Shown here in pieces: positions 39,561-64,000 of a stretch of 64,000 bases of DNA. The notes beneath the pieces are model-generated. The model searched no databases, was not told the DNA's origin, and saw only the letters and a program-made list of their open reading frames with translations. Where the stretch lies: contig VCMS01000053.1 of assembly GCA_022539475.1 (NCBI GenBank), positions 166,834 to 230,833 on the forward strand. Direction: 5' to 3'. Every line of letters begins with the position of its first letter. Positions within the stretch are counted from its first letter, which is position 1. The position numbers and the translations under genes are program-made. Origin of the DNA: Gracilaria domingensis (lineage: Eukaryota; Rhodophyta; Florideophyceae; Gracilariales; Gracilariaceae).

Positions 39561-39594
39561 CAATGTAATAAACAATAAATTTATGCTACTATCT

Positions 39595-39905
39595 CTAACC
39601 AACCTTTCGAAAACCAGCTATGACATGAGCTGGGTTACTCGAGCCAAAGATGGCAGATCCTGCAACTGAAATGTTTGCACCGGCCTTCACTACTCCTTTC
39701 ACAGTACTCAGTCCAATACCCCCATCCACCTGTATCCCTATTCTTGGGTACAACTCCCTTGCATGTCGCACCTTGTCAAGAACACCCTCCATAAACGCCT
39801 GTCCTCCAAACCCTGGCTCCACCGTCATCAACAATAACATGTCTACAACTCCTTCCTTCATAAGTGCTTCTACGACCTTTATAGACGTATTCGGGCGCAA
39901 TCCAA
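39595..39905 (-). pseudogene. Ribulose-phosphate 3-epimerase, C-terminal fragment
   Basis: About 102 residues match the second half of RPE: GVGLRPNTSIKVVEAL, LLLMTVEPGFGGQAFM, QVDGGIGLSTV and VAGSAIFGSS. In the full TIM barrel VEPGFGGQ and VDGGI hold the substrate phosphate and the second catalytic Asp. The first half (first metal and Asp motifs) is absent. A stop precedes GVGLRP, and a possible IAIIKRM segment lies just upstream in another frame, implying frameshift plus truncation. The remaining alternative is a final exon of a gene with a large intron. Confidence 0.72.
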
Positions 39906-40312
39906 CTCCATCCTTTTAATTATGGCAATCCAAGTGAAGCTATAGAACCCGTTCACGTCATTTATGAAGCCAAAATGGCTCCTTTCATCCTGTATTCAAG
40001 CTCCCCGTAACTCGTACTTTATAACTACTTTACAACTCAGGTTTGAAATCAGTTTCATTCATTGCACACTTTCTACTCTTCCACCTACCTTTCATAAAAC
40101 ATCATCACACTTTGTGGCTTGTCGTCTCATACAAGCCCTATCATTCATTCAGTACAATCACATATCATACATTTCGCTCACTTTCACAAAGTGAACCATG
40201 TTCCCGTTCTGCGCTTCCCAACCGTTTGTACTTAAGTATCACTCTTTACCCCAGCAGTTCTCTGCCCCATCTTCCATTTCTATCGTCACACAAAAACATT
40301 CGAACACTTGCA

Positions 40313-41263: not shown

Positions 41264-41272
41264 ACATAAAAG

Positions 41273-42391: not shown

Positions 42392-42748
42392 GTTGAACAG
42401 CTATTGCAGTGAAAGGTGTATATCAACAATACGTTCGCTCTGGACGATACAAGAACGGATGCGAGCCTTTTAAATGGCGACTTACGCTGGGCACCCCCGC
42501 TTTCGGCAGCTCCTCCCAGCGCACTGCCAGTCTCGTCCGTGTCCTGTCCGTGGCCGCTTGCACGCTGATTGTACGCTTTAGAGTCGTGGAGTTCGCGCAA
42601 TGATGACTCACGCGAGCAATGGTCGCGCTCTCTAATCATGCTCTTCAAATGCTTTGCATAGTAGTCAAGAGAACACTCATTTACTTCCATGTACAGCCTA
42701 CTCCCGCGAATACACGTGGACAGCGGCGCCAACGTACCGGCGGCCGGG

Positions 42749-43685
42749 TGTAGCGAAATCACTGCGGGGCGGCGTGTTTTGGGAGGTCCCGGGAAGGCGC
42801 CGAAATGTGGCCAAAACGTGCCCGCGAGCGGGGAGGGGTCGGTCGTGTTAGGGTAGCTACCCTAACACGACCGGACCCCCCCGCCCGCGGGCATAAAATC
42901 GCACATTTTTCAAAAAATCGTCCAAAACGTGCCCGCGGGCGGGGGGGTCCGGTCGTATTAGGGTAGCTACCCTAACACGACCGACCCCCCGCGCCCGCGG
43001 GCATAAAATCGCACATTTTTCAAAAAATCGTCCAAAACGTGCCCGCGGGCATAAAATCGCACATTCTTCAAAAAATCGTCCAAAACGTGCCCGCGGGCGG
43101 GGGGGTCCGGTCGCGTCAAGGTAGCTACCCTAACACGACCGACCCCCCGCGCCCGCGGGCATAAAATCGCACATTTTTCAAAAAATCGTCCAAAACGTGC
43201 CAGCGGGCGGGGGGTTCCGGTCGTGTTAGGGTAGCTACCCTAACACGACCCACCCCCCCCCCGCCCGCGGGCATAAAATCGCACATTTTTCAAAAAATCA
43301 TTCAAAACGTGCTCGCGGGCGGGGGGGTCCGGTCCTGTTAGGGTAGCTACCCTAACACGACTGACCCCCCCAGCCCGCGGGCATAAAATCGCACATTTTT
43401 CAGAAAATCGTCCAAAACGTGCCTGCGGGCCGCGGGGTCCGGTCGTGTTAGGGTAGCTACCCTAACACGACCGACCCCCCTCCGCCCGCGGGCATAATAT
43501 CGCACATTTTTCAAAACATCGCCCAAAACGTGCCCGCGGGCGGCGGGCTCCGGTCGTGGTAGGGTAGCTACCCTAACACGAGCGACCCCCTCCGCCCGCG
43601 GGCATGTTCTGGCCACATTTTGGCACCCTCCGGAGACCTTCGAAAGCACTCCTCCCGGCTCTTCTGGCAGTGATTTCGCTGCACA
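42749..43685. repeat. Foldback block with seven palindromic 110-bp units
   Basis: Outer arms are TGTAGCGAAATCACTGC and an inverted counterpart ending GCTGCACA, followed inwards by further inverted similarity (GGAGGTC..., AAATGTGGCC). Between them, units centred on GTAGCTAC at 42853, 42963, 43121, 43231, 43343, 43453 and 43564 recur at 110-112 bp (one step of 158 has a 48-bp partial unit). Each unit is an inverted repeat around TTAGGGTAGCTACCCTAA with long G-run and C-run arms ending GCCCGCGGGC, linked by an AT-rich spacer (AAAATCGCACATTTTTC). Confidence 0.85.
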
Positions 43686-46594: not shown

Positions 46595-46960
46595 GAAAAG
46601 AAGAAATGAACGAGAAACGACGACACAGACTGCGAGGGAAGGGCGTCCGAAGGGAAAAAGAGGTCGAGCGACAGTCAATATCGACGTCTTGCTCAGAACG
46701 GAGAATATATTTTGAGTTTAAATCACGTGCTTTCGTTCAAAAAGGAACGTAGGTACACGTCGACCTCAACACAAGGGTATACTTCTCGTATTATCTACCA
46801 CTGGTTATAAACCTGTAGTTTCCCAACGTTGTACGCTGTACACTTGTCCAATCTCGCACAGAAAAATAAATCTCTTTCCTCCGCCGCCGCCGCCGCCCGT
46901 CCGACGTCCGACCTTTTGTTACCGTCGTGATCCGTGCCATCCTCGGGTTCTACTCCGCTT

Positions 46961-47022
46961 CGTCGTACGTTTTTCCGCCCTCGCACTCGCTACGAAGTGC
47001 GAGGGCGGAAAAAAGTACGACG
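46961..47022. repeat. Long hairpin in the transposase 5' region (short copy only)
   Basis: Arms of about 27 bases (core TTTTTCCGCCCTCGCACT and its complement) around an eight-base loop. The corresponding site near 62020-62060 in the long copy lacks the second arm, so the hairpin is polymorphic between the copies. Between here and 47278 lie short GCGGACA-containing segments with no gene. Confidence 0.7.
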
Positions 47023-47278
47023 GATTACGAAGTAGCGTGCTGAGAATGGATTCCATTAAGCGGACATGAAGCGTACCTCATTCTTTTTCTCCGCCCTCGT
47101 CGGACGCCTCCATAAAGCGGACAGCATCCGTATCTCACGGATATATTCCGTGCAGTCTTTTCGGACGTGCATCCATTTCCTTCTACGTATCTTTGTTCTA
47201 AACTAACCAATCCTCACCACGTCTCTTCGCGCTCTGCGACATGGAAACGGCAGGAAAAAGGCTTTGGGTTACTTTTGC

Positions 47279-48165
47279 GAGTTACTAGGTCCCTCGACTT
47301 TTCTAGCGCAACGTTTCTGTTTTGCTCTTATCAATGGTACGTTCTATCGCATTTCAACTGTATCCAACGGAGCATTGACTAACATATGGATACTTTCTGC
47401 TTGCGTATACAGGTAAACGACCAATTTCATTTCGTCTCTCAAGATCGATTTCTGGCTGTTCGGGATAGGCGATTCTGGTACTTGGTTGGGACATAGGCTG
47501 CTCTTTCGTTTATCGCATCTTGAGGTATGTTTGCTGCATGGGCATTCTTAGTGTCCTTGGTTGTGAGTTCTCGCTTCGACACCTTTCGCGCTTTACGATG
47601 ATGGTGGGCTGGTAATCTAACCGATCCCTTTCCTGCTTCTTCTTCCGTTTGCGAGTTACTAGGTCCCTCGACTTTTCTAGCGCAACGTTTCTGTTTTGCT
47701 TTATCAATGGTACGTTCTATCGCATTTCAACTGTATCCAACGGAGCATTGACTAACTTATGGATACTTTCTGCTTGCGTATACAGGTAAACGACCAATTT
47801 CATTTCGTCTCTCAAGATCGATCTCTGGCTGTTCGAGATACGCGATTCTGGTACTTGGTTGGGACATAGGCTGCTCTTTCGTTTATCGCATCTTGAGGTA
47901 TGTTTGCTGCATGGGCATTCTTGGTGTCCTTGGTTGTGAGTTCTCGCTTCGACACCTTTCGCGCTTTACGATGATGGTGGGCTGGTAATCTAACCGATCC
48001 CTTTCCTTCTTCTTTTTCATTTTGCGAGTTACTAGGTCCCTCGACTTTTCTAGCGCAACGTTTCTGTTTTGCTTTATCAATGGTACGTTCCATCGCATTT
48101 CAAATGTATCCAACGGATCATTGACTAACTTATGGATACTTTCTGCTTGCGTATACAGGTAAATG
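47279..48165. repeat. Tandem repeat, period about 374 bp (short copy)
   Basis: GAGTTACTAGG marks unit starts at 47279, 47653 and 48026; two full units and a partial third. The minus strand is open for about 90 codons in each unit, but these frames are basic and identical between units, so coding is doubtful. Each unit contains TGCTTGCGTATACAGGTAAA. The same repeat is at 62350-63235. Subterminal repeats like this often bind a transposase. Confidence 0.8.
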
Positions 48166-48204
48166 ACTTTTGATGCGGACGTAGCTCACGAGTTGCAGGT
48201 GCAG

Positions 48205-48355
48205 GTTCCTCAAGTAGGGAACCATGCATCTGGGCATGGTTCCCTACATGAGGAACGGAGAGGATGAGGCGCTTCGCGCCTCATCCTCTCGGAGTGCGTA
48301 TTTGTTCTACCGATACAGCCGATGGTGGACGTGCAGTCTGCGGCATCTGCCGCAG
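48205..48355. repeat. Three consecutive strong hairpins (short copy)
   Basis: 48205-48256: arms GTTCCTCA and TAGGGAACCATGC with complements. 48258-48290: perfect 15-bp stem (GAGAGGATGAGGCGC) with loop TTC. 48338-48355: perfect 8-bp stem CTGCGGCA with a two-base centre. They lie between the tandem repeat and the right end of the element. All three are present at 63275-63424. Confidence 0.82.
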
Positions 48356-48784
48356 ATTGCGCCTACACTTGCTCCATCATGGGGATATGGTACATGTAAT
48401 ATAGCGAAGTAGTGGTTAGCAAAAGCAGTCGATAGAAGAATAGATACGAATAAAACGGTATGATTTCATAATGGGCATCATCTGTACTAGCACTAGTATT
48501 CCATGCGTTGCAGGGTATCATTCCGCAGAAGGTATCGTGTAATGTGCACCTTAATGGAAACTGAACCTAGACTTCGCGAAATACAGTTCAGGTAGCCCTC
48601 GACTAAAGAACTAGCACGAGTGGAAAACCCACCAGTATTTACTGCACAGCGATTCTGGACGACCCAAGCAATTATCTGCAAATTTTGAAATAATTGATCT
48701 CGATATTTTTTCAAAAAATTTACTGGACGACCCTTGCCAATTTCTGGACGACCCTCGCCAAAAACTAGCATCTGCAAGAGACAG

Positions 48785-49383
48785 ACGTTGGTGTCTCGGC
48801 GAATCATGGAGCTTTCCTGCGTTTCTCTGACGAGAGGGAAATTAAGGGTGCATTCAATGATCACACCCTTGACCACACTGTTGACGGACTACTGTTCTTG
48901 GCAAGGGATTTGAATAGGAGGCATGGTATTGTGAATGATGATGACAAGGGGTTCGTGGAGACCAGAAGTGATAGTGGCCTTCCCAATTTCGTGTACAACA
49001 AACTGTGGCAGTGGAAAGAAGAAGTGGATTCTGCTATTGAGGACCTGTTGCAGAAGATGGATGCGTTTGTTATCTATCCCGGCGATAAAAGTTGCGAAAT
49101 TGTGGACAAGCGATACACAAAAGGAAGCGGAGAAGAAAATCTTGTGGATAATGAACCAAGATTTGTTGATATGGATGACGTCGTGACGTTCGGAAGTGCT
49201 TTGAGCAACGGGCCTTTGCATGAGGTAGGCGTGTTAGGCGTTCACGTCAAAGAAGATTGTATCCCGGGTGGAGTACACAACTTGTTCGAAAGCGTGGAGG
49301 ATGTACATTCGACAATTATGTTGGTGGCTCTGTTGTACGGCTACGAGGAAAAGCAGCACGATAAAAACCACCATGAATCATAA
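48785..49383 (+). pseudogene. HAD-like phosphatase, 5'-truncated at the transposon edge
   Basis: Directly after the element edge the frame reads VGVSANHGAFLRFSDE, matching FGISGNQGARVRLS of the neighbour HAD gene, and continues through SGLPNFVYNKLWQWKEEVDS and VTFGSALSNGPLHEVGVLGV to a stop at 49383. The N-terminal nucleotide-phosphate motif (DVDGTL) is missing. So the short transposon copy, or a rearrangement involving it, removed the first part of a second HAD gene. It is convergent with the intact paralogue, with 73 bp between stops. Confidence 0.7.
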
Positions 49384-49456
49384 AAGGGTATTGAGATATA
49401 TACGACACTTTTATTACTGAGATCTCATATCATAGCTAAGTATTACAGGCATCGTA

Positions 49457-50308
49457 TCACTTGAAACAAATTCCAAGAGCATTTCTAAACCATTGACACT
49501 TGCATTTTCTGTACCCGTACAGTTCTGCCACCCTTCTGATGGTCTCATGCACGTCCTCCACCCCATCAACAAGATATGTTACCGCTGCTGGATGGTCTTC
49601 TCCCTTCACATGAACTGCCAGGATTGCCATTTCATATAGAGCGCCATCATTGGAAGCATTCCCGAAAGCAACGATTAAATGTGTGTCGAACTGGGGGTCG
49701 TTTTCAACCAAGGCTAGCGCCCCACTATTTTTCGTGAAACGAATGTCCCCTATGTCACAGTTTTCATCTTGAAGGTACGCAACCAGGTTCGGAAAGGATG
49801 TCAACACTTTTGAAATACCGGAGTTAACTTCTGTTTTCCACTTCGACAGTCCATTGTACGTGAAGTTAGGGAGTCCACTGTCTTTTCTAGTGCTCACCAC
49901 TGCTTGTTGACGCTCTTCGTGAAGTCCGTGCGATTCATTTAAGGAGAGTGCAAGTCTCTCAAGTTCGGCTGCACATCTTTCGTAGCCTTCCCTGTCAAGG
50001 TCCTGATCAATTTCGGTACCATTGGATAATCTCACCCGTGCGCCTTGGTTTCCAGAGATGCCAAAAGTGTAGCCACCCAGGTGCTCCATGAAACTCTCGG
50101 CATCCTCTATATCTCGCCAAGTAGCAATTCCGAAACCAACGAGTGCGTTGATGTACTTCATGCATTTGACTGTTTCGGCAGGAATGTTCTCCCCAGCTCT
50201 TTTCAGAGTACCGTCAACATCACTAATCACGGCGTAGCCATTTTCGAATATTTCGTTAGCCAGCTGCTGAGGAGTTACTTCTTGGGCTCTAACTTCTGAG
50301 TTATACAT
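49457..50308 (-). CDS. HAD-superfamily phosphatase-like protein
   Basis: A 283-residue frame from ATG 50308. Motif I is VISDVDGTL (Asp30 and Asp32: nucleophile and general acid), motif II lies at TFGISGN, and the C-terminal acidic motif region reads VAFGNASNDGALYEMA, as in Cof-type, trehalose- and sucrose-phosphate phosphatases. Size suits a cap-containing HAD of that group. It should hydrolyse a phosphate ester with Mg2+; the substrate is not identifiable. The open frame extends upstream to 50386 without an ATG, so 50308 is preferred. A truncated paralogue lies convergently at 48785-49383. Confidence 0.72.
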   Translation of the reverse strand: MYNSEVRAQEVTPQQLANEIFENGYAVISDVDGTLKRAGENIPAETVKCMKYINALVGFGIATWRDIEDAESFMEHLGGYTFGISGNQGARVRLSNGTEIDQDLDREGYERCAAELERLALSLNESHGLHEERQQAVVSTRKDSGLPNFTYNGLSKWKTEVNSGISKVLTSFPNLVAYLQDENCDIGDIRFTKNSGALALVENDPQFDTHLIVAFGNASNDGALYEMAILAVHVKGEDHPAAVTYLVDGVEDVHETIRRVAELYGYRKCKCQWFRNALGICFK

Positions 50309-50579
50309 GTTTTGAAAGCTTTCGAAAGGGTTCGTTTTGCAAATGGGTGTGGGTATACGAATGAGAAGGATGTGATTGATGTTCACAAGGTGTTTCTTAG
50401 TATAAAAAGAGTCTAAGAACGACCATATACGGGTATTGTAGTACTGTTTTAAAACATTACTAGGAGGAGAAGTTTTTGCATCGATTTGAAGTAAAGAAAG
50501 GATGATTTAGTCATAAATTATATGCACGGGTTCAAGTGGGTAAAGAAAACTGTAAATATCTTTAACATGAGCTTAGAAA

Positions 50580-51626
50580 TCAAGAAGAGTAAAACAACCT
50601 CTTCACAAGGGCTTCAACGTGGCGTTTACTTACTCCACGGAGTAAACTGGGCGGAGTGTCCACCAGAGTGATGTCAACAGTAACAACAACCATCCGGTAC
50701 TGATTGAGGTTCACCTTTGGTACCTTCTGACGAATTCGTCTGTACGTCTTGCTCCGAGTAGGTGTCCCTTGTGTTCCAGACCGCTCGCCAGAAACACTTG
50801 AACGTGCCATTCTTGCGGACAGAAGCATAACGTCATCGTCCTGCTGCTCCGCAGTTTCTGGTGCAGTTTGGGGTACAGATGGACCAGCTCCTTGCGCGGA
50901 TTGCGCATCCGCGTCTGGAAGGGGACCTTTCATGATCTCATCTTCCTCCTCTTGCACAGCCGTCCCCTGCTGAACCGTCTGTTTCGACGCAGAAGATCCC
51001 CTTGTGTCGACGGTTTGATTCATCGCAGGAGAAGCCCTTTTCGACGCAGTGGGCTTCGTAGCGGAGGTAGACTTTGTTTGACCTGTCCGCTTCGTAGCTG
51101 GGGATGCTCTCGTCTCCATAGACCGCTTCGTAACAGACGATGGACCTGCCCGCGGAGGTGGTACTGATGCGCTACCTCTCGGTGTTGATGAACTTCGAAT
51201 TGGCTCCGTGCGGCTTGTCGGCGTCATCACCTCACTCATAGCGCTCACCGTTCCTCGCTTGGACGCCGGAATGCTGGCTGCCACCGGTTCCATCATTTTC
51301 TCATCCCAAGGAGCGGCCGTCCGGAGATCCTGGATATATTGTGGAAGATCCAGGCCCTCCGCCCGGTAAGGGTAGAACGTCTGACCGCTTCGACTGATGA
51401 GAATATTATGAACCACCACAAGACCTGGGTCCAATTGCTTCCCGTGCACCTCGCGGCGTAGAACACTTCCAATTCCATGCAACAACGCTTCCCCGACTAT
51501 CACCTTTCCTTCATCCTCAATATCCATTTGCAGAGAGACCCGCATTCCACCTCGCAATAATCGAGTGCTCCGCCGAGTGCGAGGAGTCACGCTTTGCGTA
51601 CGCTTTCAAACACGAGTTGGCTTCAT
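50580..51626 (-). pseudogene. Gene A, long element copy
   Basis: Matches gene A of the short copy from 51626 to 50703. Here the ATG at 51626 is followed by TGA at codon 7 (51606-51608), where the short copy has CGA; the TAA of the short copy is absent here. The frame is then open to 50580. In-frame ATG at about 51545 could start a shorter protein of about 320 residues. Composition as in the other copy: a compact N-terminal part and a Ser/Thr/Lys/Arg-rich tail with an acidic patch (EEEDEIMKG). The last 40 residues come from DNA outside the region shared between copies. Function unknown. Confidence 0.62.
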
Positions 51627-51696
51627 GTTGAACAGCTATTGCAGTGAAAGGTGTATATCAACAATACGCTCGCTCTGGAGGATACAACAACGGATT

Positions 51697-51779
51697 CGAG
51701 CCTTTAAATGGCGACTTACGCTGGGCACCCCCGCTTTCGGCAGCTCCTCCCAGCGCACTGCCAGTCTCGTCCGTGTCCT
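51697..51779 (-). promoter_or_regulatory. Left promoter arm (gene A side)
   Basis: About 83 bases beginning CGAGCCTTTAAATGGCG and running through GGGCACCCCCGCTTTCGGC to CGTCCGTGTCC form an inverted copy of 52594-52676. TTTAAA is a TATA-like core about 75 bases upstream of the gene A ATG. Duplicated cores may give co-ordinate divergent expression. Confidence 0.65.
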
Positions 51780-51982
51780 GTCCGTGGCCGCTCGCACACT
51801 GATTGTACGCTTTAGAGTCGTGGAGTTCGCGCAATGATGACTCACGCGAGCAATGGTCGCGTTCTCTAATCATGCTCTTCAAATGCTTTGCATAGTAGTC
51901 AAGAGTACACTCATTCACTTCCATGTACAGCCTACTCCCGCCAATACACGTGGACAGCGGCGCCAACGTACCGGCGGCCGGG

Positions 51983-52432
51983 TGTAGCGAAATCACTGCG
52001 CGGCGGCGTGTTTTGCGAGGTCCCGGGAAGGCACCGGAATGTGGCCAGAACGTGCCCGCGGGCGGGGGGGGGTCGGTCGTGTTAGGGTAGCTACCCTAAC
52101 ACGACCGGACCCCCCCGCCCGCGGGCATAAAATCGCACATTTTTCAAAAAATCGTCCAAAACGTGCCCGCGGGTGGGGCGGGGTTGGCCGTGTTAGGGTA
52201 GCTACCCTAACACGACCGGCCCCCCCCGCCCGCGGGCATAAAATCGCACATTTTTCAAAAAATCGCCCAAAACGTGCCCGCGGGTGGGGGGGGTCGGTCG
52301 TGTTAGCGTAGCTACCCTAACACGACAGACCCCCTCCCCGCCCGCGGGCACGTTCTGGACGACTTTTTGACACCCTCCGGAGACCTCCCAAAACACTCCT
52401 CCCGGCACTTCCGGCAGTGATTTCGCTGCACA
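51983..52432. repeat. Foldback block with three palindromic 110-bp units
   Basis: Same block as 42749-43685 but with three units, centred at 52088, 52198 and 52308 (exactly 110 bp apart). It sits between the divergent promoter arms. Copy number therefore differs (three against seven) between otherwise similar element copies. Confidence 0.85.
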
Positions 52433-52593
52433 CGCCGTGCACATATATCAAACTAGAGAAAACTAGCGCTTCACACCCACTTGATCCGCGACTTTTAGCA
52501 CAATACGGGACCGTTGCAATAGCTCCGAATCGCGACGTGGCCGACACGCGACGCTATCGCTCCGACACGCGACGCTATCGCTCCGAGCGGACA

Positions 52594-52676
52594 CGGACAC
52601 GGACGAGACTGGCAGCGCGCTGGGAGGAGCTGCCGAAAGCGGGGGTGCCCAGCGTAAGTCGCCATTTAAAGGCTCG
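52594..52676 (+). promoter_or_regulatory. Right promoter arm (methyltransferase side)
   Basis: Inverted copy of 51697-51779, ending CGCCATTTAAAGGCTCG just before the methyltransferase ATG at 52700. Upstream, two direct 22-bp repeats (CGACACGCGACGCTATCGCT) occupy about 52542-52584. Confidence 0.65.
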
Positions 52677-52699
52677 CCTCCGTTGTTTGCGCTGAAGCG

Positions 52700-55600
52700 A
52701 TGGATTCCACCGATGTTGGAGAGGAGATACATCCTATCGACATGAGTGCTCCGCCTCCGGCGTTCCATGCATATGTCAGACTTTTCTTGGTTCTTCGCGA
52801 TGCTTTGGCAAACAGCGATGGAGGCCCTGATCGGCCACGGGACGTGGGGTTTAGAGGGTTAATAGAGTTCTGCGCCGAGAACTATAAGGATATTCCGGAG
52901 GCAAGGAAGATGTTTGAGGAGGCCACTAACTCCAAGAACCTGCAGAACTTGACACTGCAACAGCTGCGAAAGAGTGTTGTGAATAACAAACCTGTGGAAC
53001 AACGATATCTTGTAACGAAGCTTCTTGACAAGAAGGACGGGGATGAGGACCAGAGACTGCGCGATTTTTCCTTCTCTCTATGGATATGGGTATATACCTA
53101 CCAGTGCGATGCCTGGTTGGTTATTTCATGACCAGGAGAAAGCACGTTCTGAAGACGACAGTGTTCATCCCACCAACAGCTGTGAACCCATTTGAGGTCG
53201 TTATATACTTATCATGCCTCGGCCGCATAATGGGAGAGAACGACAACATCCGAATGATGAAGAAGAAACAACCGAAAAAGAAACGAAAAGTGAACCATGC
53301 ACCATCTGTGTACATACCCACTTTTACGTCGTTCTCCAAAGACAACTGTGATCGACTGGGATTCGCTATCAGTGAGGTCGTATGGGCATGGAGTTGTTTT
53401 GCGGCTCATCTTGGATACACGAACGTTCAGCATATGGTGAAACCATACATTTACATGAATATGCAGACGTTGAAGTATACGGCGCTAGAGACACGGGAGT
53501 CTGGTTATGCCCCGCCGAGCCAGAGTACTCGATTCAACACAAAGGATGTGCCACAGAGCAGTACTAGTGGATCGGTGGAGACCTTGAGTGATGAATGCGA
53601 TACAAACCTCCGAATACTGGCTAAGGAATTTTTGACAGACCTCGAAACCGTATGCACCCACGATAGCCTCTATAGCTTACGGGCTGATCAGATGAGGAAC
53701 TGGATAGAGTTTTCGGAGATACGGATGGATACCGTATCTGGTTCTGACTCCGGTGAGTTGCCTGCTCGATTTCAGAAGTTTTCGGAGTTGCTATGGAAAC
53801 CGATACAGGATATGCGTCATGCGGCAGGGTTCCATGTCGGCATTCACGCGAAACCTGATATTGAACTAACGAAAACCCCTAGAACTTCCGGTAATGCCGA
53901 ACCTTCTTCGACCAAGTCTGCCCCACCCCCACCTCGTCGAGAGTATATGAACCTCGTGAGCTCCGATAGCGGCGAGTTCGAAAAGCCGGTGAATCTTGCG
54001 GAGCATGAATCTCGGGTTGCCGGTTACAACATCCAAAAGACTGGTATTGAGCCGCCCATGAAGGGGATATCCAGTCTCCTTCGAATGAATATGGACAAGG
54101 TGTGGAAGGGGATGAGAAAGTCACACTTTGTAGCGTACAACTGTGACATGACGGACCTGAGGCACACACACGAAACGTTTGTGAATCAGAGTGAGATTTT
54201 ATGGGGTGAGGCACAGCTTGTCCTAACAGACCCTCCCTTTAACACTCGAAGGAAGAGGAACAAGCGGAATAGTGGTCACGATGTCTTCAGTGAGGAAGAC
54301 ATGATCCGTACGGCTGACTTAATAAGTTCCGCGCTTCGGTCAGGTGGGCACTTCATTATATTCTGTGCCATGGCACAGTTTCATGTGTGGCACAGGATAC
54401 TTTCGGAAACGGCGAGTACGAAAGATGAAGCTGGAAGCGAAGGTAAACCAGAACTCATGCCTTCGTTTAAAGTGGATGCGAATACACTGGTGTTCATCCG
54501 GGATCGCAGTAATGTTGGAGGGAATCCACGGAAGTTTGGGATACAGCCCGTAACGGAGTACGCCGTTCATGGGGTGAAGCGTGGATTGCGACCATCGGAG
54601 GAAGCCAGTCTTACTCCATTTGAGGAGAACAATTTCATTCCTTCTACTTTCCCGGCTAACAGGAATGTAATTGACCGGGTGCCAAAACCGAGAGCGGGGG
54701 AGTGGTTGACATGGAAGGTACATGAGCCAGGTAGTTCAGTACCAGGTGGGTAGTACATAAGACCGGAGCAGAAGTCGAGGGAGTTGATGAAGGAGTTGAT
54801 ATGTCGCTTCACAAGACCGGGTGATCTTGTCATGGACATGTTCGCGGGAACTTTTTCTACGGGTATGGCGTGCCTATCGCTGACAAAGCATAGGAAGTTC
54901 TTGGGGTGCGAGAAGAATAGGCCATGTTTCAGCCATGAGAAGCACCATCTAACGACTCTTATGGCCGAAGTTATTCGCGGGGGAAGAATGACATCCTGGT
55001 TGAACAGGAGGTGGTGGATGCGGCTTCAACGACCTATGAACGGGTTCCACATCGGGACCGAGGTCGGCTTGAATGGGAGGCTCCATTTGGTTACCCCCAG
55101 TACCAAGTGATGCCTGGACATATTATTCAGTTCCTAGGAAGATACTGGAAGGACTGGGACTTTGTCGAGAAGTGTGGACAGCGTACTGTAGATCTTTGGG
55201 AGGGGAAGTACCGAGGAGCTCTGAATCTTATGGATATGCATATGCTGTTGACTTTAGAAGCCAATCGCTATCGCTTACATATAGCATCTTCTAAGATTCG
55301 ACATCCCCGTGCTGGTATGGGGGTGTTCACGGAACATAAGATATTGGCTGGGGAAACTATCTGTCATTTCTATGGAACTTTGGTATACACGGATCTGACG
55401 AACCGGAAGGAAAGACACTTAACGTATGGAAGTGGCTGTCTCGGAGCAACTCCAGTGCGGTACAAGTTGTTTTCTATGATGGTCACTGTGACTGGTACGG
55501 AGTTTCTGCACCTGAGGAACAGACCAGGACAGGCTCAGGATAGAAAGGAGAGCGAAGTCTACATTGTCCCGGCGCCTTTTTGTATCGGGGGCTACATTAA

Positions 55601-55835
55601 CGACGCCGGATATCATGCCGGGGATCCCGATTTATCGGAGCCCCGGTCAAACAGGACTCGAAGTGCTAATGTGCAGGTGGTGGAAGCGAAGTCCGTGATA
55701 CAGTTTAAGTCAGACCTTTCTAACTATGCTCTACTTCGTTGTAGAGCAGTAAGAGAGATTGAGAGGGGCGAAGAGTTGTATTTCAACTACGGAGAGCAGT
55801 ACGCCTGGGACTGGGCTCTGACATTGGAGCAATAG
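52700..55835 (+). pseudogene. DNA amino-methyltransferase fused to SET domain (broken)
   Basis: Three frames give one coherent protein of about 1040 codons. Part 1 (52700-53131) is helical with no known motif. Part 2 (53080-55110) carries VLTDPPFNTRR (motif IV, catalytic DPPF) and, after a TAG at 54751-54753, PGDLVMDMFAGTFSTGMACL (AdoMet-binding motif I) and FLGCEKNRP. DPPF before FAG is the beta-class order of N6-adenine/N4-cytosine methyltransferases. Part 3 (55011-55835) has a SET domain: AGMGVFTEHKI, CIGGYINDAGY, GEELYFNYGEQ. The upstream frame of part 3 joins part 2 at a G-run (54979-54983), one base short. So lesions are a frameshift near 53090-53130, the TAG, and the G-run. It would modify DNA and a lysine on a protein such as histone. 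Recoding is possible but decay is simpler. Confidence 0.78.
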
Positions 55836-56088
55836 ATGAGTTCAGTACCGAATAGAAAGCAAAAATATGCTTGTGAGTGTTGCAGCTGCCTGCAATACGC
55901 GTTGTTGTACATGTACACTGGAGCTCTTCATCTGTAACGGCGATATTTGCGACCCATTGGGCACCTCAAATTCCTAAAAAGCAGGAACTGCGGAGTCTCC
56001 CGGAATATCTGAACCATGCACCCCCCCCCCCTCACCCCTTCCTCCCCCCCCAACAATTTCGTTTCATTACCCCGTTTATCTCCACAAC
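55836..56088 (+). promoter_or_regulatory. Spacer with poly-C tract before the 798-residue gene
   Basis: 253 bp between the SET stop and the next ATG, with a C-rich pyrimidine tract at about 56019-56053 that ends 35 bases before the start codon. Similar C-rich runs are not seen before other genes here. Probably promoter/leader of the following gene. Confidence 0.35.
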
Positions 56089-58485
56089 ATGGGTATAACG
56101 CCGAGAAAGCGAAATAGTACGCAGCGGAACAAGAGTGGACAGAAGAAGAGAAGAGCATCGGATGATACGAATCAGGCTACAAGCACCGCACTTCCTAAAC
56201 GGAAGTCGTCCTCGACAAAGGAGAGAGTCAGTGGACGTCCTTCTACAGGACTCTCTCGCCCATCTCGCAGCGGAGCGTCTTCCGAGATTGCGTCAAGAAT
56301 TCGTGGATCAGCGAACGATGTCGTGCCGTCAAGTGCCGATAAGGCAAATCGTGCATCTGTCTCTGCTCCTCAAGAAGATGAGGTAACTCGGCCCAGCGGG
56401 TCAGGACAGGAGGGCATGACAACTGGAACCGAAGAGGTTCGTATGACACCAAAACCTTCATGTCCCCGGCCGATATCGAAGACCGGAGCTACTGGGGCGC
56501 GGGTTACGCCGCCCAGTGGATCTGGACAACAAGGGACAATGACGAGAAGTCGTGAGAGCCCTAGTATATTAAGATCGTCACGTCCATCCCTGTCTTCTAG
56601 AACTGGGGCCGCTATGAATCGTATCATGCCTCGCAATGGGTCCGGACAAGGGAGAAAGACAATAAGAAATCGAGAGACAACTGATAGACGAGTTACTCCT
56701 CGACCTTCCCCTCTTTCCAGAACGGGGGCCGTTGCAGCTCGTACGAGGCCCAATTCATCTGATATACCATGCCATGGAGGAGGACAGACACGGGAGTTGG
56801 AGCTCGGAGCCGTGCCAAGGGTGGACACAGAACGCCTGCAGCCTCTCGTGTCTAAGGCTATGGCACATGAGGATAGTTCCGATAACGAAATAACACCGAA
56901 TCCTGCGGCATTACCGGGGCCTGTCGCCGAAGAAGCTAGGGAAATAACGGAAGATATCCAAACTGGTGTGAATTCAAGCTCTATGAACAGACCTGATCTT
57001 TTAAATGAACTGAATTGCTTGAAAGAAAAGGTTAAGACGCTACAAGAGGACTTGATGATTCGGGGAATTCTAGTGAAGGTCGCCCAAGAGCAGAGTACGG
57101 CTTTGAAAAAGAGGCTTGAAGAGAAGGATCTAGTCATTGAAGGGCTAAGAAGGGCACTGAAACAGGAGGGAGATAGGAGTGCACGTGCTGGTGAACCTGG
57201 GCAGACAGGTCGAAAGAAGCATAAAATTGAGGTGTGCGACGAGTTTCGAGGGGTTGCTCGAGCAGTGTATCACAACATGCTGACGTGGGCAAGGAGAGAA
57301 ACAAGTGAGCTATGGCTCGAAGGTGAGTCGCTCACCCGAAATTGGGGTAACCGTGCCGAGAAGGTGGAAGACGCAACTGAGAGTGGGGAAGGGCTTATTG
57401 AGCCGGAGGAAGGTGGTTCATACATGGTTCCTAAAAACCCCGTGGAGCTCTTGGGCAGTTTTGGCATGTTCACACCGTCGGTAGAGGGGGAGCCAGATGC
57501 TTTGCTGAAGAAAATGGTTGAAAGCGAGTTGAAGGAGTTGAGCTGGGAAGGTATTAGAAAAGCATCTCTTACCGACAGGTGTATACTGGAACTTTGTGCA
57601 GATATGTGCCTTAGGCAGAGAATTCGGCGGACCATGAGTGACGTTGTGGGCGTTCGTAAGAGAAATACGAGGGATAAACTATTTCTGCTCCTGGGGTACG
57701 ATTTGATTTGGAGAAGAACAAAGCTGGTAGAAGGGAATGCTGACGAACTCACAATGCAGTTGAAGGAAGCGCAGGAGAACATACTGCGTCTTGACGAAAA
57801 TGGTGTACCGAACACTTCATGGTGGAGAAAAGCCCCATTTCTTCGTCTAAAGTACTCCAATGCGGACAATGTCGAGGATATGCCGACGGAAGATCAAGAC
57901 TTGTTCTTCCAAAACCGTGTCGGGGTACAAGTGATGAAAGAGTTTATTGGGTATGATGTGGAAGACAAGGATACGGGCACCTTTTTAGATGGCACAATAC
58001 TGTTGCTCGCACGTTTGGACGCTTGGGTGTTGACGGTTGTGAGCTTTCTAAGTACGGATGTGTCAAGGGGTGGCCAGAGACAGAAACTGTTTACAAAGAA
58101 GTTTGCCGAACTGCTACCTCTGTGTTTAAAGAATGTTCTGGGGGATGTTAGGCAACGTGTCTTGAGGACCAATTCCAGCGAGTTTCATAATTTTGGAACG
58201 ACAACGGAAGATTGGACTAAGGTTCTTGGTAATGACATGAGAGAGGCTGCATTTGGATATCGAATGCCGTCAAACGGAAGACTTTACCTCACTGTGAAAG
58301 AACAATTTTTTATTGACAGTGTGAGCCAAAGATTGGGGTCTATTAGCGATTGCTTCGTTGGTGAATGCGAGGAAGGGGATATGGAGTTCAAGGAAATGGA
58401 CATGAACGATTTCGGAAGTAACACAGGATCACAAGAAAAGGCACCACAAGGTGAACATGTAGAGGATGGAGCCCTTAATGTTTAA
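56089..58485 (+). CDS. 798-residue coiled-coil protein of the transposon, unknown function
   Basis: Intact frame, the only full-length undamaged gene of the element. The N-terminus (1-100) is basic and Ser-rich, suited to nuclear localisation. Residues about 100-245 hold four loose repeats with PSGSGQ and SRTGA wording. About 304-361 is a coiled coil (CLKEKVKTLQEDL, KKRLEEKDLVIEGLRRAL). The C-terminal half (about 380-770) is a folded-looking region rich in Trp, Leu and charged residues (RETSELWLEGESL, FLLLGYDLIWRRT, FGYRMPSNGRLYLTVKEQFF). I recognise no family. Its stop codon overlaps the transposase stop by two to three bases (58482-58485), tail to tail. Conservation in the long copy suggests a role in transposition or in the modification system. 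Confidence 0.75.
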   Translation: MGITPRKRNSTQRNKSGQKKRRASDDTNQATSTALPKRKSSSTKERVSGRPSTGLSRPSRSGASSEIASRIRGSANDVVPSSADKANRASVSAPQEDEVTRPSGSGQEGMTTGTEEVRMTPKPSCPRPISKTGATGARVTPPSGSGQQGTMTRSRESPSILRSSRPSLSSRTGAAMNRIMPRNGSGQGRKTIRNRETTDRRVTPRPSPLSRTGAVAARTRPNSSDIPCHGGGQTRELELGAVPRVDTERLQPLVSKAMAHEDSSDNEITPNPAALPGPVAEEAREITEDIQTGVNSSSMNRPDLLNELNCLKEKVKTLQEDLMIRGILVKVAQEQSTALKKRLEEKDLVIEGLRRALKQEGDRSARAGEPGQTGRKKHKIEVCDEFRGVARAVYHNMLTWARRETSELWLEGESLTRNWGNRAEKVEDATESGEGLIEPEEGGSYMVPKNPVELLGSFGMFTPSVEGEPDALLKKMVESELKELSWEGIRKASLTDRCILELCADMCLRQRIRRTMSDVVGVRKRNTRDKLFLLLGYDLIWRRTKLVEGNADELTMQLKEAQENILRLDENGVPNTSWWRKAPFLRLKYSNADNVEDMPTEDQDLFFQNRVGVQVMKEFIGYDVEDKDTGTFLDGTILLLARLDAWVLTVVSFLSTDVSRGGQRQKLFTKKFAELLPLCLKNVLGDVRQRVLRTNSSEFHNFGTTTEDWTKVLGNDMREAAFGYRMPSNGRLYLTVKEQFFIDSVSQRLGSISDCFVGECEEGDMEFKEMDMNDFGSNTGSQEKAPQGEHVEDGALNV

Positions 58486-61400
58486 GGCTGTACAAGATCA
58501 ACGTGCTCAGTTGGTCCTTCATCTGAATCATGATAGAATCGATTGATGTATAATCGGTGTTGAAACCATTGAAGTGGAGGACAAAAAGGTGGAGCAGGGT
58601 AGTTTGATCGAACAACATGGACAGTTCCCTGTAGTGCAGAAGCCGGAACCATCCCGTACCAAGGAGTTAACTCTACGATAGTCTCCGCTTTGGAATGACC
58701 AGGGAACGGAAGAGTGTGGTTCTTTTCATCGTTTGTAGCCCACCGTAAAGATATGCATTTCAATATGTGGTCGATGTTTGTTGCGGGGGGTAAAACCTCG
58801 AAATACCGGACGAATGCCACCTCTGGTGCGGTAAGTGCAGAATCAAGGAGAGATATTCGAATCAGAGCGACTACCTGGGCAACCCAAGTCTCTGAATCTT
58901 CTCCGCTTACCAATACAGTGGAAAACTTTGGCTTTCTACTGGGACCAAATGCTGGAGAAGCGAAGACACGTTGGATGATGGCGTATTTGGGTCGTCCCAG
59001 CCTAAGTACCTTAGAAGACGAATCGAAGTGTTCAAGAGTCGGAACGAAACCGCCTTTCACGAGGGCCGAATTCACCAGAGTTATCCTTGTCTTTTCTGGG
59101 AAGTATGTAATAGAGTGCTCATCCAGTGTTTCTTTCACGAGACTGAGGAAAGGAGGAAGGGCCTGCTCACCAATTTGATCAAGAATCGACCTTGTGTCCG
59201 TACTTGAGAACATCTCTCTAACAGCAGTCCATGTTTTTGAACTGGACATACTTGAAACACAATGTTGAAGAGCTCGTAAAGTGAAAGAACGCCCTTTCAT
59301 TGCAAACCGAGGAAGCTGTGTGGAAGTTCCTGGTGAACCTGGATTACGCTGGTAAGGAGTATTGCCATTCCATTGCTTTCTAACATGTCCGTGCTCAATG
59401 GAGCGAATAGTCTCCTCCACAGCCGTTGCTGTTCTTCTGGACGTCTTTTTGTAGTGTCTTTTAAATAGCAGGTGTGCATGTTCGTATATGCCTGCGTCGT
59501 AGTACTTGATACTTCGCAGACGGCGAATATCGTCCACGAGATGATCGAGAAGATGAAACTTCAGAGTTCCCAGTCTGGAGGGATTAAAATCCGCCAGAGT
59601 CTTTGTTGCGGAACGCTTGAAGGCTTCAATCTCCGAACTAAGACACAGGAGAGAGCTTTCAGTCCAATACGGGTCACGATTGTATCTGAATAAGGTCGAA
59701 AGCAAGTCCGAGTACTGAGAGAAAACGGTTGTGATTGGGGCAACGTCCTGTTCTCCACAGCATATGTCGAAGAATGCTCCTATGAAGGGAAAGACCATGT
59801 CAAGTGCTTTGTAGTTTTTGGCCTCCAGCATTCCACGGAGACCGTCTTTCGTGAAGATACCATTCAAAGATTTGCCTTTCTCCTGCGTGGAGAAATCGAT
59901 ATGTAAACCTTTGGCAGGAGAATCGCGTTCTATGGCAGCTAGAATTGCGTTTGCATGGTTGAGGAGTTGGGTGCGTATCGTTCGAAATGAACGCGATGCA
60001 GATGTTCCTATTGTGGTGCACAGGGTGTCTGACTGCAGTCTCTCGATTGTGGCCGTTTTTATCAACTTTGAGATGCCGAGATGCAAGTTGTGTAATGGTT
60101 CGAATGAGAACAGACTGTATGGAGACAATCCCGGGATCATTCCAAGGCTTACGGAAGTTTCTAGGAACGAAGGAATGAGAGATATGGAATTTGAACGCAT
60201 CAGAGTATCCACTTGAGATCTCCTCTCCCTCGCACGACGTGGACGTCTTTCCGCCTCGTCTTTTTGTGCATGTTGCAAGATAGCTGTGTATGTCTTTCGG
60301 ATGCTTTTCGTGTGCTTTTGAGAACGTCCGTTGAATGAGGTGGGAATAGGACTGCATAAAGATGAGCGAGGGGCTTTGCATCTATGACACGGGCTTTCCG
60401 TTTTGGTCTCATAAAGAATGGACAGAATGTCCTTAGCCTCAGGAATATCCGCACAATAACTTGCAAGCAGAGGATGACACACTCGACTTAGTTTGTCTTC
60501 GCCGATGAACTGAAAACCTTTCTGCGTGAGATTTAGAATGGGCTCCAGGACTTGACGAAGAGATTCTTGAAGGATTTGCATCCTGGACTCGCGTAGAGAC
60601 TTGCTAGAAACGAATGGCATTGCGTCTGCTTCAGATGCGGAAACCTCGATCAGTGTGGTAGGGAAGTATGCCACTACTGTGAGGTCATCACGGATACACT
60701 TACGGCGAAGCTCGTAGGAGAAGTTGAGAGAGGTGAAGAGGATAGGCGGTAACCGATGTTTGCTTTAGAGTTGTTGAAGACTTATCGGTGTATACCTGCA
60801 GAAGACCTACGAAAGATTCACTGTAACTTATTTCTTGGGAGTACCACACTATTCTACTATCCAAAGAGCCCATGACCATTTCCTTAAGTTTTGAGGTGGC
60901 GTCTCTTGCGAGAGAGCCGGACATGGGGTGAGATATTTTCGTGGAGTGGGTCTGAGGTATAGGGTGGAAGAATGTGTTTTCGTTGTTAGCCAACTGGAGC
61001 TGTTTCACAAGTGTCTGAAAGGGTTCTCTCGTGTAGACGGTGGCGCTGAACTTACATCCTTCTGGCGAGACAGTTCTTCGATTGAAACCGTCCTTTGAGG
61101 CGTATCGTTCGAAAATGGCGTTCTTCAGTTCTGTACAGCGCTTGGAACTTGTTATGGTCTCGTTGAATCGCTTTTGCGAGAATCGCGGGTCCCGAAGTAG
61201 CCCAATTAGCTCGTCAGCCTCACGATGACCAAGGTTGGAAGCTACTGAAGCCAGACAAACCGTGAGATAATCCATATGCAAATCACCGAGGGTCTCCTCA
61301 GAAGGCACTGGGCGGCAACTGCTTCCGTGTTCTCGCTCTAATGACGCGTGACCCGGGGAAGGAGAAACACAATGCAAAGTGTCCGGAATGAGAGGGGCGC

Positions 61401-61656
61401 ACGGAGTGGGGTCGACGATGTCCTCGGACACCGGAGGCTCGGGAAGGCGACAAGGGGCAGTGACCGTTTCGGAAGATGCGGGCGCGGGTGCGGAAAGCTT
61501 GAGACGCTTGCTTCTCCGAATGGGCCGGCTATTGTCGTCTTCCAGCGCTGCTTTCAGACGAAACGGGCAATGGTTGACATGCTGTTGAAGAGATAAGACT
61601 CCTCGGCGAGTAACGAAGGGGCACCCACGCTTCTTATGTGTACAGTAGTAGACCAT
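58482..61656 (-). pseudogene. KDZ/Plavaka-like transposase, long copy, +1 shift in core
   Basis: Part 1 (60700-61656, from ATG 61656) starts with a zinc finger C5-x6-C12-x13-H26-x3-C30, then a low-complexity linker and the start of the core with VYTDKSSTTLKQTS, the expected first catalytic Asp region. Part 2 (to 58482) continues from NFSYELRRKCIRDDLTVVAY and has PCHRCKAPRSSL, FEPLHNLHLGISKLIK, FHLLDHLVDDIRRL and YDAGIYEHAHLLFKRHY, the pattern of Plavaka/KDZ and related CACTA-like proteins. The parts are one base out of register at about 60730 (CTCTCTCAAC), identically in both element copies. Either a shared lesion or recoding. Total about 1040 codons. Part 1 otherwise stops at 60700. Confidence 0.75.
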
Positions 61657-62349
61657 GGGAAGAAGAAATGAACGAGAAACGACGACAAAGACTGCAAGGG
61701 AAGGGCGTCCGAAGGGAGAAGGAGGTCGAGCGACAGTCAATATCGACGTCTTGCTCAGAACGGAGAATATATTTTGAGTTTAAATCACGTGCTTTCGTTC
61801 AAAAAGGAACGTAGGTACACGTCGACCTCAACACAAGAATGTACTTCTCGTATTATCTACCACTGGTTATAAACCTGTGGTTTCCCAACGTTGTACGCTG
61901 TACACTTGTCCAATCTCGCACAGAAAAATAAATCTTTTCCCTCCGCCGCCGCCCCCGCCCGTCCGACGTCCGACCTTTTGTTACCTTCGTGATCCGTGCC
62001 ATCCTCGCGTTCTACTCCGCTCCGTCGTACTTTTTCCCGCCCTCGCACTCGCTACGAAGTAGCGTGCGGAGAAAGAGAATGAAGTACGCTTCATCTCTGC
62101 TTGATGGATTCCATTAAGCGGACATGAAGCGTACCCCATTCTCTTTCTCCGCCCTCGTCGGACGCCTCCATAAAGCGGACAGCATCCGTATCTCACGGAT
62201 GTATTCCGTGCAGTCTTTCCGTGCAGTCTTTTCGTACGTGCTTCCATATCCTTCTACGTATCTTTGTTCTAAACTAACCAATCCTCACCACGTCTTTTCG
62301 CGCTCTGCGACATGGAAACGGCAGGAAAAAGGCTTTGGGTTACTTTTGC

Positions 62350-63235
62350 GAGTTACTAGGTCCCTCACTTTTCCAGCGCAACGTTTCTGTTTTGGTTTAT
62401 CAATGGTACGTTCCATCGCATTTCAAATTTATCCAACGGAGCATTGACTAACTTATGGATACTTTCTGCTTGCGTATACAGGTAAACGACCAATTTCATT
62501 TCGTCTCTCAAGATCGATGCCTGACTGTTCGGGATAGGCGATTCTGGTGCTTGGTTGGGACATAGGCTGCTCTTTCGTTTATCGCATCTTGCGGTATGTT
62601 TGCTGCATGGGCATTCTTGGTGTCCTTGCTTGTGAGTTCTCGCTTCGACACCTTTCGCGCTTTACGATGATGGTGGGCTGGTAATCTAACCGATCCCTTT
62701 CCTGCTTCTTCTTCCGTTTGCGAGTTACTAGGTCCCTCGAATTTTCTAGTGCAACGTTTCTGTTTTGCTCTTATCAATGGTACGTTCTATCGCATTTCAA
62801 CTGTATCCAACGGAGCATTGACTAACTTATGGATACTTTCTGCTTGCGTATACAGGTAAACGACCAATTTCATTTCGTCTCTCAAGATCGATCTCTGGCT
62901 GTTCGGGATAGGCGATTCTGGTACTTGTTTGGGACATAGGCTGCTCTTTCGTTTATCGCATCTTGCGGTATGTTTGCTGCATGGGCATTCTTGGTGTCCT
63001 TGGTTGTGAGTTCTCGCTTCGACACCTTTCGCGCTTTACGATGATGGTGGGCTGGTAATCTAACCGATCCCTTTCCTTCTTCTTTTTCATTTTGCGAGTT
63101 ACTAGGTCCCTCGACTTTTCTAGCGCAACGTTTCTGTTTTGCTTTATCAATGGTACGTTCCATCGCATTTCAAATGTATCCAACGGATCATTGACTAACT
63201 TATGGATACTTTCTGCTTGCGTATACAGGTAAATG
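62350..63235. repeat. Tandem repeat, period about 374 bp (long copy)
   Basis: Unit starts (GAGTTACTAGG) at 62350, 62722 and 63096; same family and same number of units as 47279-48165. Between the transposase start (61656) and here lie GC-rich leader DNA and GCGGACA-containing segments with no gene. Confidence 0.8.
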
Positions 63236-63274
63236 ACTTTTGATGCGGACGTAGCTCACGAGTTGCAGGTGCAG

Positions 63275-63424
63275 GTTCCTCAAGTAGGGAACCATGCATC
63301 TGGGCATGGTTCCCTACATGAGGAACGGAGAGGATGAGGCGCTTCGCGCCTCATCCTCTCGGAGTGCGTATTTGTTCTACCGATACAGCCGATGGTGGAG
63401 TGCAGTCTGCGGCATCTGCCGCAG
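63275..63424. repeat. Three consecutive strong hairpins (long copy)
   Basis: 63275-63326, 63328-63360 and 63407-63424 repeat the three hairpins at 48205-48355, with all stems kept; the only length change (one base) falls between hairpins two and three. Confidence 0.82.
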
Positions 63425-64000
63425 ATTGCGCCTACACCCGCTCCATCATGGGGATATGGTACATGTAATATAGCGAAGTAGTGGTTAGCAAAAGCGGTCG
63501 ATAGAAGAATAGATACGAATAAAACGGTATGATTTCATAATGGGCATCATCTGTACTAGCACTAGTATTCCATGCGTTGCAGGGTATCATTCCGCAGAAG
63601 GTATCGTGTAATGTGCACCTTAATGGAAACTGAACCTAGACTTCGCGAAATACAGTTCAGGTAGCCCTCGACTAAAGAACTAGCACGAGTGGAAAACCCA
63701 CCAGTATTTACTGCACAGCGATTCTGGACGACCCAAGCAATTATCTGCAAATTTTGAAATAATTGATCTCGATATTTTTTCAAAAAATTTACTGGACGAC
63801 CCTTGCCAATTTCTGGACGACCCTCGCCAAAAACTAGCATCTGCAAGAGACAGGACGCAGCCGCCGGATGCGGCTTGATGTCTTGTAGGCCTCTAAAGGC
63901 TCTCTCGGATGTTCTCAGAAGGACAGACAGTATTCTATTGACTTTCACCTCTCATGAACCAGAGATGGTGGGAGAGTGATTCAGTAAGGCTTAAATGCTC
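63425..64000. other. Right end of the element and flank
   Basis: To 63853 the DNA matches 48356-48784; it contains three copies of CTGGACGACCC (about 63724-63826). From 63854 the flank is new and starts with a hairpin AGCCGC-CGGAT-GCGGCT (63858-63874), of the same CCGC/GCGG type as the stem-loops at 24501-25975. No gene recognised. Confidence 0.5.

Follow-up and report, generated by a model that had tools for sequence, protein, structure and literature searches.

The 64,000-nucleotide stretch of the red alga Gracilaria domingensis analysed here, hereafter the window (contig VCMS01000053.1, positions 166,834 to 230,833; C53:166834-230833 in our search of the 77.9-Mb, 680-contig genome), carries at 50600-63857 the right part of a multi-copy giant Plavaka-type DNA transposon. 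This part, termed element B, comprises the beginning of a serine/lysine-rich gene that continues into a ParB-like part, an array of palindromic repeats, a predicted DNA amino-methyltransferase gene fused to a SET domain, a 798-aa open reading frame (ORF), a convergent transposase gene and subterminal repeats (Table 1). An earlier note had taken 50703-63853 for one transposon holding a KDZ/Plavaka-like transposase, a beta-class DNA methyltransferase (DPPF, then FAG) whose frame runs on into SET, an intact 798-residue unknown, a serine/lysine-rich gene and repeats at one end. The transposase, the order of methyltransferase and SET motifs, the intact 798-residue frame and the repeats (373-374-bp units near the right end) were all recovered. 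The frame from methyltransferase into SET is open in other copies but not in that of the window, where it is split in three and carries a stop at 54751, and the serine/lysine-rich ORF exists but is not a separate gene, being the first part of the ParB-like gene cut at a junction. The block does belong to a single element, but as a whole element it had to be rejected, since its left edge at 50600 is a junction and full copies measure ~22.8 kb, nearly twice the length of the block, and hold more genes; 50703 and 63853 are not element ends but the bounds of the homology to 41468-48784 in element A, another copy in the window.

Ends, copies and gene order of the element

Both ends were found in three of the six copies tried, with lengths of 22,805 bp (C157), 22,819 bp (C23) and 22,815 bp (C187); for the other three, guessed coordinates missed the left end (C16, C137) or the right end (C329). 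The two-ended copies share the termini CGTCTGT...ACAGACG and have different flanks, and according to the gene tables the HAD query is matched by C157 and C23, the latter also having the 798-aa ORF with one stop, and C187 matches the dioxygenase query (defined below) and SET. The right end reads ...CTGCAAGAGACAGACG, with GACG following ACA in 18 of the 20 right-end loci read from the best 40 of 624 candidates (the exceptions being GTAG in L059 and GATG in L069); four further loci gave GACG (C23, C187, C137) or GTAG (C16). The sequence beyond the right end varies among the 20 loci, but L065 shares its flank with L071, and L062 with element B. The transposase segment on C149 (L048, L062) is 100% identical to that of the window and has the same right flank as element B, so this assembly stretch seems to be present twice. 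On the other side, a left-arm query (window 37300-41300) gave at least 38 rows across the genome, the window itself included; 36 of the matches listed, spanning most of the query, begin at query position 256-265 (~window 37564), and one additional short and diverged row likewise begins at position 265. The sequence CGTCTGTGTTCTGC stands at the left end, after differing flanks, in 14 of the 16 left-end loci read, the other two (C16, C137) being those where the coordinate guess was off and the end was missed. Of the 15 bases of the terminal repeats, 12 are the same at both ends (CGTCTGTGTTCTGCA and CGTCTGTCTCTTGCA). An idea from the comparison of elements A and B, that the palindromes form the left end, was dropped once this end had been located at 37564. 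We are highly confident of the overall anatomy: the element is a DNA transposon of Plavaka type, giant in size, that moves by cut and paste and ends in short terminal repeats.

The transposase gives the classification. The Plavaka profile PF18759 matches an intact 1,087-aa transposase (copy L050) with an E-value of 7.6e-19 (68.5 bits, cut-off 26.3) and the window ORF with 4.4e-10. The Plavaka-defining motifs C(2)C and H(3-4)H, which the available part of PMC12730594 places between the second D and the last E, occur as CHRC and HLLDH in all 10 loci searched as well as in elements A and B; with D, D and E assigned by eye (YTD, ADIPEA, YEH), the enzyme is of DDE type as judged from its motifs. 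Of the KDZ/Plavaka label, the second half thus stands and the first was rejected, Plavaka being the sole profile match of the 1,087-aa protein at E<=1 in a library that includes a KDZ model. The element termini differ from those of fungal PlavakaA (TGT..ACA) and PlavakaB (CATCA..TGATG); TGT..ACA occurs 4 bp inside the element ends, and we file the element in neither group.

The genes of the block recur together across the genome. Taking all match counts from the tables as lower bounds, we scored at least 78 methyltransferase matches (best 78 of 693 candidates; 47 without internal stop, 31 with stops), at least 56 matches to the 798-aa ORF (best 56 of 900; 25 without internal stop), at least 61 to the transposase (best 61 of 1593; 57 without) and at least 150 to SET (best 150 of 311, the first eight rows looking host-type in score and span). 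Among the matches listed, 43 of 78 methyltransferases are followed by SET at a distance of 300-900 bp, exactly 565 bp in 25 cases; SET or methyltransferase lies upstream of the 798-aa ORF in 44 of 56, a convergent transposase lies within 10 bp of that ORF in 12 of 56, and for 31 of 61 transposases at least one of the three genes is convergent and no more than 6.5 kb away. The two outcomes named in the earlier note as fatal to a single element, a transposase never accompanied by these genes or the genes standing alone, were not what we found. That the block is a host gene cluster with the transposase as a chance neighbour is hardly credible: no point in its favour was found, and the dispersed multi-copy occurrence and the fixed ends, lengths and spacing speak against it.

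The gene order, a composite of several overlapping copies and not of any one read end to end, is 341-aa ORF (-), piece of ribulose-phosphate 3-epimerase (-), 406-aa ORF (+), HAD hydrolase 2 (+), HAD hydrolase 1 (-), dioxygenase-like gene (-), serine/lysine-rich-ParB-like gene (-), palindromic array, methyltransferase-SET gene (+), 798-aa ORF (+) and transposase (-). Because the spacing lists each hold ~40 of 305-990 candidates and pairs are missed, the constant spacings are the evidence here. Among the matches listed, the left arm is followed by the HAD query after 403 bp in 6 of 36 and by the dioxygenase query after 4,127-4,132 bp in 6 of 36 (this latter query, L055:2400-3900, covers the start of the dioxygenase-like gene and the ParB-like gene); the HAD query is followed by the dioxygenase query after 2,663-2,679 bp in 7 of 40, and in 11 of 40 the methyltransferase comes 2.2-2.9 kb after the dioxygenase query. 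The HAD-type hydrolase genes, two in number and diverged from each other, stand side by side within the element, and a HAD gene is also present at L057:1067-1978. The epimerase piece sits in a left-arm stretch common to at least 36 other copies and is probably a captured host-gene fragment. A comparison of the 406-aa ORF with solved structures returned nothing useful, and the predicted structure of the 798-aa protein has a mean predicted local distance difference test score (pLDDT) of 34.2.

In the window, element B adjoins an inverted fragment of a third copy, and since 50600 is the junction between the two, element B lacks its left part; element A, internally deleted, lies on the far side of the fragment. 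Mobile elements abound in the window: the left end of element A interrupts frames that resemble gag and pol of Ty3/Gypsy elements (by eye, 33897-37563), and ORFs resembling hAT-type and Harbinger-type transposases (by eye) are found at 8125-9303, 27129-27782 and 28977-29921. A 285-aa short-chain dehydrogenase-like ORF (by eye, 2596-3453, +) is probably a host gene.

Table 1. Features of the transposon copies in the window (window coordinates)
Feature	Position	Strand	Basis or remark
Element A, internally deleted copy with both ends	37564-48787		copy comparison
Left terminal repeat of element A, CGTCTGTGTTCTGCA	37564-37578	+	end comparison
341-aa ORF in left arm	38032-39057	-	
Ribulose-phosphate 3-epimerase, C-terminal 104-aa piece	39595-39909	-	PF00834, 7.4e-25
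406-aa ORF, Rossmann-like, GxGxxG start (by eye)	40043-41263	+	without profile match
Element A remnants: HAD hydrolase 1 (41340-41466) and serine/lysine-rich part of ParB-like gene	41340-42247	-	
Palindromic tandem repeats of element A	42811-43605		7 palindromes
Element A transposase, broken	43573-46678	-	
Right terminal repeat of element A	48773-48787	-	end comparison
Inverted fragment of third copy with both HAD hydrolase genes	48788-50600		
HAD hydrolase 1	48898-49383	+ (within inverted fragment)	profile match
HAD hydrolase 2	49457-50386	- (within inverted fragment)	profile match
Element B, right part of giant Plavaka-type element	50600-63857		homology to element A (50703-63853), C591 homology from 50599, right end
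Serine/lysine-rich and ParB-like gene, first part, cut at 50600	50600-51626	-	ATG at 51626; stop a few codons after ATG
Inverted repeat, 93 bp, arm 1	51686-51778		60 bp upstream of ParB-like-gene ATG; arms 97% complementary
Tandem repeats of 111 bp, 3 palindromes of ~30 bp, core TTAGGGTAGCTACCCTAA	52045-52350		one unit with a change
Inverted repeat, 93 bp, arm 2	52595-52687		ends 13 bp before methyltransferase-SET ATG
Predicted beta-class amino-methyltransferase-SET fusion, broken	52700-55835	+	two frameshifts, stop at 54751
798-aa ORF, intact	56089-58485	+	C-terminal region conserved; middle possibly a coiled coil (by eye)
Plavaka-type transposase	58482-61740	-	one frameshift near 60730-60746; convergent with 798-aa ORF
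Subterminal 374-bp direct repeats	62344-63237		repeat search; units of 373-374 bp
Right terminal repeat of element B, CGTC(C)TGTCTCTTGCA, one extra base	63842-63857	-	end comparison

The methyltransferase-SET fusion and its likely DNA mark

As far as the predicted proteins go, the fusion of methyltransferase and SET domain is real and conserved. In copy C465 it forms a single 1,045-aa frame with N6_N4_Mtase at 506-743 and SET at 873-1032; the intact copy L012 matches PF01555 with 3.8e-15 and PF00856 with 1.7e-7 (32 bits, cut-off 22.4), and one stop-free frame of 1,055 codons is common to eight copies in the methyltransferase and SET tables alike. The PF01555 match and the position of DPPF ahead of FAG place the enzyme in the beta class. 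The window gene is interrupted, its pieces lying at 52700-53068, 53065-54987 and 54981-55835.

A database search with the fusion protein yielded 18 relatives (29-46% identity, in sources given without organism). The N6_N4_Mtase profile is matched by 19 of 19 aligned members and the SET profile, at 0.001, by 14 of 19, the other five just aligning over the SET region; DPP is invariant in 19 of 19, as are the aspartate and the glycine of the FAG region, and the motif order is kept. The best matches among solved structures are the bacterial adenine methyltransferases DpnA and CcrM, followed by MboIIA and RsrI. DPPF fits an N6-adenine enzyme better than an N4-cytosine one, the latter not being excluded by it. 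A viral origin of the fusion was considered and rejected, a scan of viral contigs having turned up no fusion and just two weak matches, at query residues 674-757 (33% identity) and 680-741 (31%); one of the viral loci (L100) has a 222-aa methylase ORF, the other (L099) no ORF of 150 aa across the match. Three SET matches on C382 (11387-11890, 35738-36238, 111587-112090) have a longer span and frames of 1,169-1,170 codons, and perhaps represent a second long-SET family.

The epimerase fragment, common to at least 36 other copies, and the stops in 31 of the 78 methyltransferase matches listed would suit passenger genes without function in transposition, comparable to those of Pack-MULE elements. 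We consider this very unlikely, because the many open frames, the distant relatives with the same fusion and a pooled ratio of nonsynonymous to synonymous polymorphism (pN/pS) of 0.35 point to a selected function. This ratio was calculated over a 557-codon methyltransferase segment in 28 copies (the best-scoring 30 of 78, minus L021 and L033, to which a fixed offset did not fit), and it is biased downwards because the sample consists of the best-scoring copies.

The nature of the mark can be approached through the host genome. A C5-cytosine methylase profile had no match in the whole genome, although a gene split by introns or lying in a gap could be missed; the same profile matched in 10 of 14 control genomes. 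The observed/expected ratio of CpG is 1.05 in the window and 1.01 and 0.99 in the two copies (range 0.99-1.09), that is, without depletion. Together, the two results disfavour heavy CpG methylation and make an amino-methyl mark, N6-methyladenine (6mA) or N4-methylcytosine (4mC), the more likely product, as judged from sequence. Against them stands the related alga Gracilariopsis chorda, where methylation is given as ~8% and mostly non-CG in a review (PMC8566409); CpG counts would not reveal methylation of that kind.

ParB-like and dioxygenase-like genes beside a palindromic array

Upstream of the fusion gene and divergent from it lies the serine/lysine-rich-ParB-like gene. In the window, the frame of the serine/lysine-rich ORF continues unbroken into the first stretch of the ParB-like part, where the junction cuts it off; the ParB-like part continues in another copy (L055:2804-3895), and in C591 the two parts lie in overlapping, different frames, so that the statement of one gene draws on several copies, none of those read having it open throughout. 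A search of solved structures with the ParB-like part gave nothing useful.

The adjacent gene (L055:943-2706) encodes a putative 2-oxoglutarate/Fe(II)-dependent dioxygenase-like protein, a designation based on motif spacing: H411-x-D413 and H487 are invariant in five aligned sequences, and R507 is kept in four, the fifth (P0019) having G. P0019, a Gracilaria domingensis hypothetical protein, is 93% identical to the protein of the element over 93% of the query. The TET/JBP profile, which the Pfam library contains, did not match the dioxygenase-like protein, and neither the protein nor its profile retrieved anything useful from solved structures. In another protein (P0020, 993 aa) the ParB-like and dioxygenase-like parts are joined in the same order, which suggests that the two proteins of the element may work together. 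The fungal enzyme CcTet oxidises 6mA as well, according to the accessible part of PMC12730594, so that a dioxygenase of transposon type can act on this base.

The palindromic array occupies the space from which the ParB-like and methyltransferase-SET genes diverge; it is made of 110-111-bp units (palindromes were counted with up to three changes allowed) and is enclosed by the two inverted-repeat arms. Array and arms together look like a divergent promoter serving both genes, in which the palindromes may be an operator or a site of nucleation. Within the palindromes (42811-43605, 52045-52350), TTAGGG and CCCTAA face each other; a search for (TTAGGG)4, made with a link of these cores to telomeres in mind, found no match in the assembly, which may lack telomeres.

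Predicted self-marking, alternatives and related elements

The fusion, its conservation and its ParB-like neighbour make self-marking of DNA and histones plausible. We put at about even the chance that the best overall explanation is a giant Plavaka-type transposon with its own epigenetic module and predicted self-marking, and somewhat below even that the purpose of such marking is to avoid silencing or to regulate transposition. In this mechanism, the ParB-like protein would bind the palindromic array between the divergent genes, and the methyltransferase-SET protein would reach the array directly or via the ParB-like protein, where it would give the DNA of the element an amino-methyl mark, with 6mA the most likely form, and nearby histones a methyl-lysine. 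These marks could keep the promoters of the element open, or could time the expression and cutting of the transposase, for example after replication, and the dioxygenase-like protein would remove or limit the DNA mark. The fullest version, a mobile self-contained epigenetic locus in which a parS-like array and the ParB-like protein nucleate adenine and histone-lysine marks by one fused enzyme, erased by the element's own dioxygenase in a host without detectable 5-methylcytosine methyltransferase, is unlikely to be right in all its parts.

Several observations weigh against this self-marking explanation. A canonical SET motif reads NHxxxPN; the SET domain of the element has IND in place of NH (the Y of the later F-x-YG is kept), which could mean a different activity or substrate. 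The methyltransferase profile also matched an N4-cytosine enzyme, more weakly (5.9e-4). For the ParB-like part, the matches to PHROG ParB families are weak (0.0011, 0.028 and 0.039; 0.018 for P0020) and a Pfam ParB match is absent. The dioxygenase-like protein has no Pfam match at E<=1 and four relatives have none at E<=10, and the structure model of P0019 is of poor confidence (mean pLDDT 31.6). As to the element, the target-site duplication, 2-5 bp long in Plavaka elements, is not consistent across the three copies with paired ends, a 2-bp TT being present in C187 and none in C157 or C23, for which two search patterns also found no empty insertion site. A right end lies within 12 kb of the methyltransferase in one of the 78 matches listed, that of the window, the ends being the best 40 of 624.

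A further such observation, that 30 of the 61 transposase matches listed have none of the three genes nearby, suggests that transposition may not need the module; these may be deleted copies such as element A, or their partners may be unscored. Persistence of copies without the genes would be explained if the module acted in trans on host chromatin or DNA marks in general, all copies escaping silencing and the palindromes being just promoter elements. The deleted element A, which has no module and adjoins a copy that does, fits such trans action, as do the inverted-repeat arms near both start codons, which resemble a shared promoter or leader; the ParB-like neighbour and the palindrome array suggest local recruitment instead, and we regard the trans model as possible, if on the unlikely side. 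The marks might also be self-limiting, with the element silencing or immunising itself (copy-number control, target immunity). Many SET enzymes write repressive marks, and a brake would benefit a parasite with this many copies; against this, the methyltransferase segment is identical in 7 of the 28 copies, a sign of recent spread, and self-limitation appears quite unlikely.

Expanded elements in the red alga Bostrychia moritziana are reportedly giant Plavaka transposons. With these and with the EnSpm elements of Chondrus crispus (Petroll et al. 2025; Kojima et al. 2013), the Gracilaria element shares a red algal host, an enlarged EnSpm-type structure and several accessory ORFs; the Chondrus families measure 16-20 kb with 4-5 ORFs in the available part of PMC6431247. 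Giant accessory-gene transposons in red algae are thus already known, and so is a protein combining ParB and N4/N6-methyltransferase in a brown-alga transposon. According to the available text of PMC12477816, the 21.5-kb DNA transposon Sola1-1_Ec32 of Ectocarpus encodes a 1,104-aa protein in which an N4/N6 amino-methyltransferase is combined with a ParB-like domain; the transposon is proposed to bind and mark itself, and similar proteins are cited for green and red algae. The Gracilaria element differs from this Sola-1 element, as far as that text goes, in its SET-fused methyltransferase, its separate ParB-like gene and its Plavaka-type transposase. The TET-bearing PlavakaB of Agaricomycetes (Kojima 2025, PMC12730594) likewise joins a Plavaka transposase to a DNA-modifying dioxygenase; in the part of that report available its termini are CATCA..TGATG, whereas the Gracilaria element has a dioxygenase-like protein without Pfam match and adds the amino-methyltransferase and SET. 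The same portion describes SET methyltransferase genes in the Phytophthora DNA transposons HarbingerS and MuDR, which belong to other transposase superfamilies, and mentions no DNA-methyltransferase fusion. Plavaka-type (EnSpm-Plavaka) transposons also occur in the green alga Auxenochlorella, with no accessory genes or 'SET domain' mentioned in the accessible part of PMC12636532. Retrotransposons of dinoflagellates and charophytes carry a mobile DNA methyltransferase too, in their case a C5-cytosine enzyme in a retroelement, according to PMC5890265. The doubt expressed in the earlier note, that such a fusion is known, is partly right: among literature titles and abstract openings found, a scope that takes in neither the text of Petroll et al. 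2025 nor that of the Repbase reports, none shows a methyltransferase-SET fusion in a transposon. It does not extend to a transposon with ParB-like and N4/N6-methyltransferase domains, which the available part of PMC12477816 describes.

A single protein that could in principle mark both DNA and histones joins two layers that as a rule stay apart, and this one is mobile and present in many copies, in a eukaryote genome without a C5-cytosine methylase profile match. If the predicted self-marking is true, red algae would be a place to ask whether a transposon can write and erase its own 6mA; if the marks are not real, the element still shows the extent to which giant algal transposons gather accessory genes.

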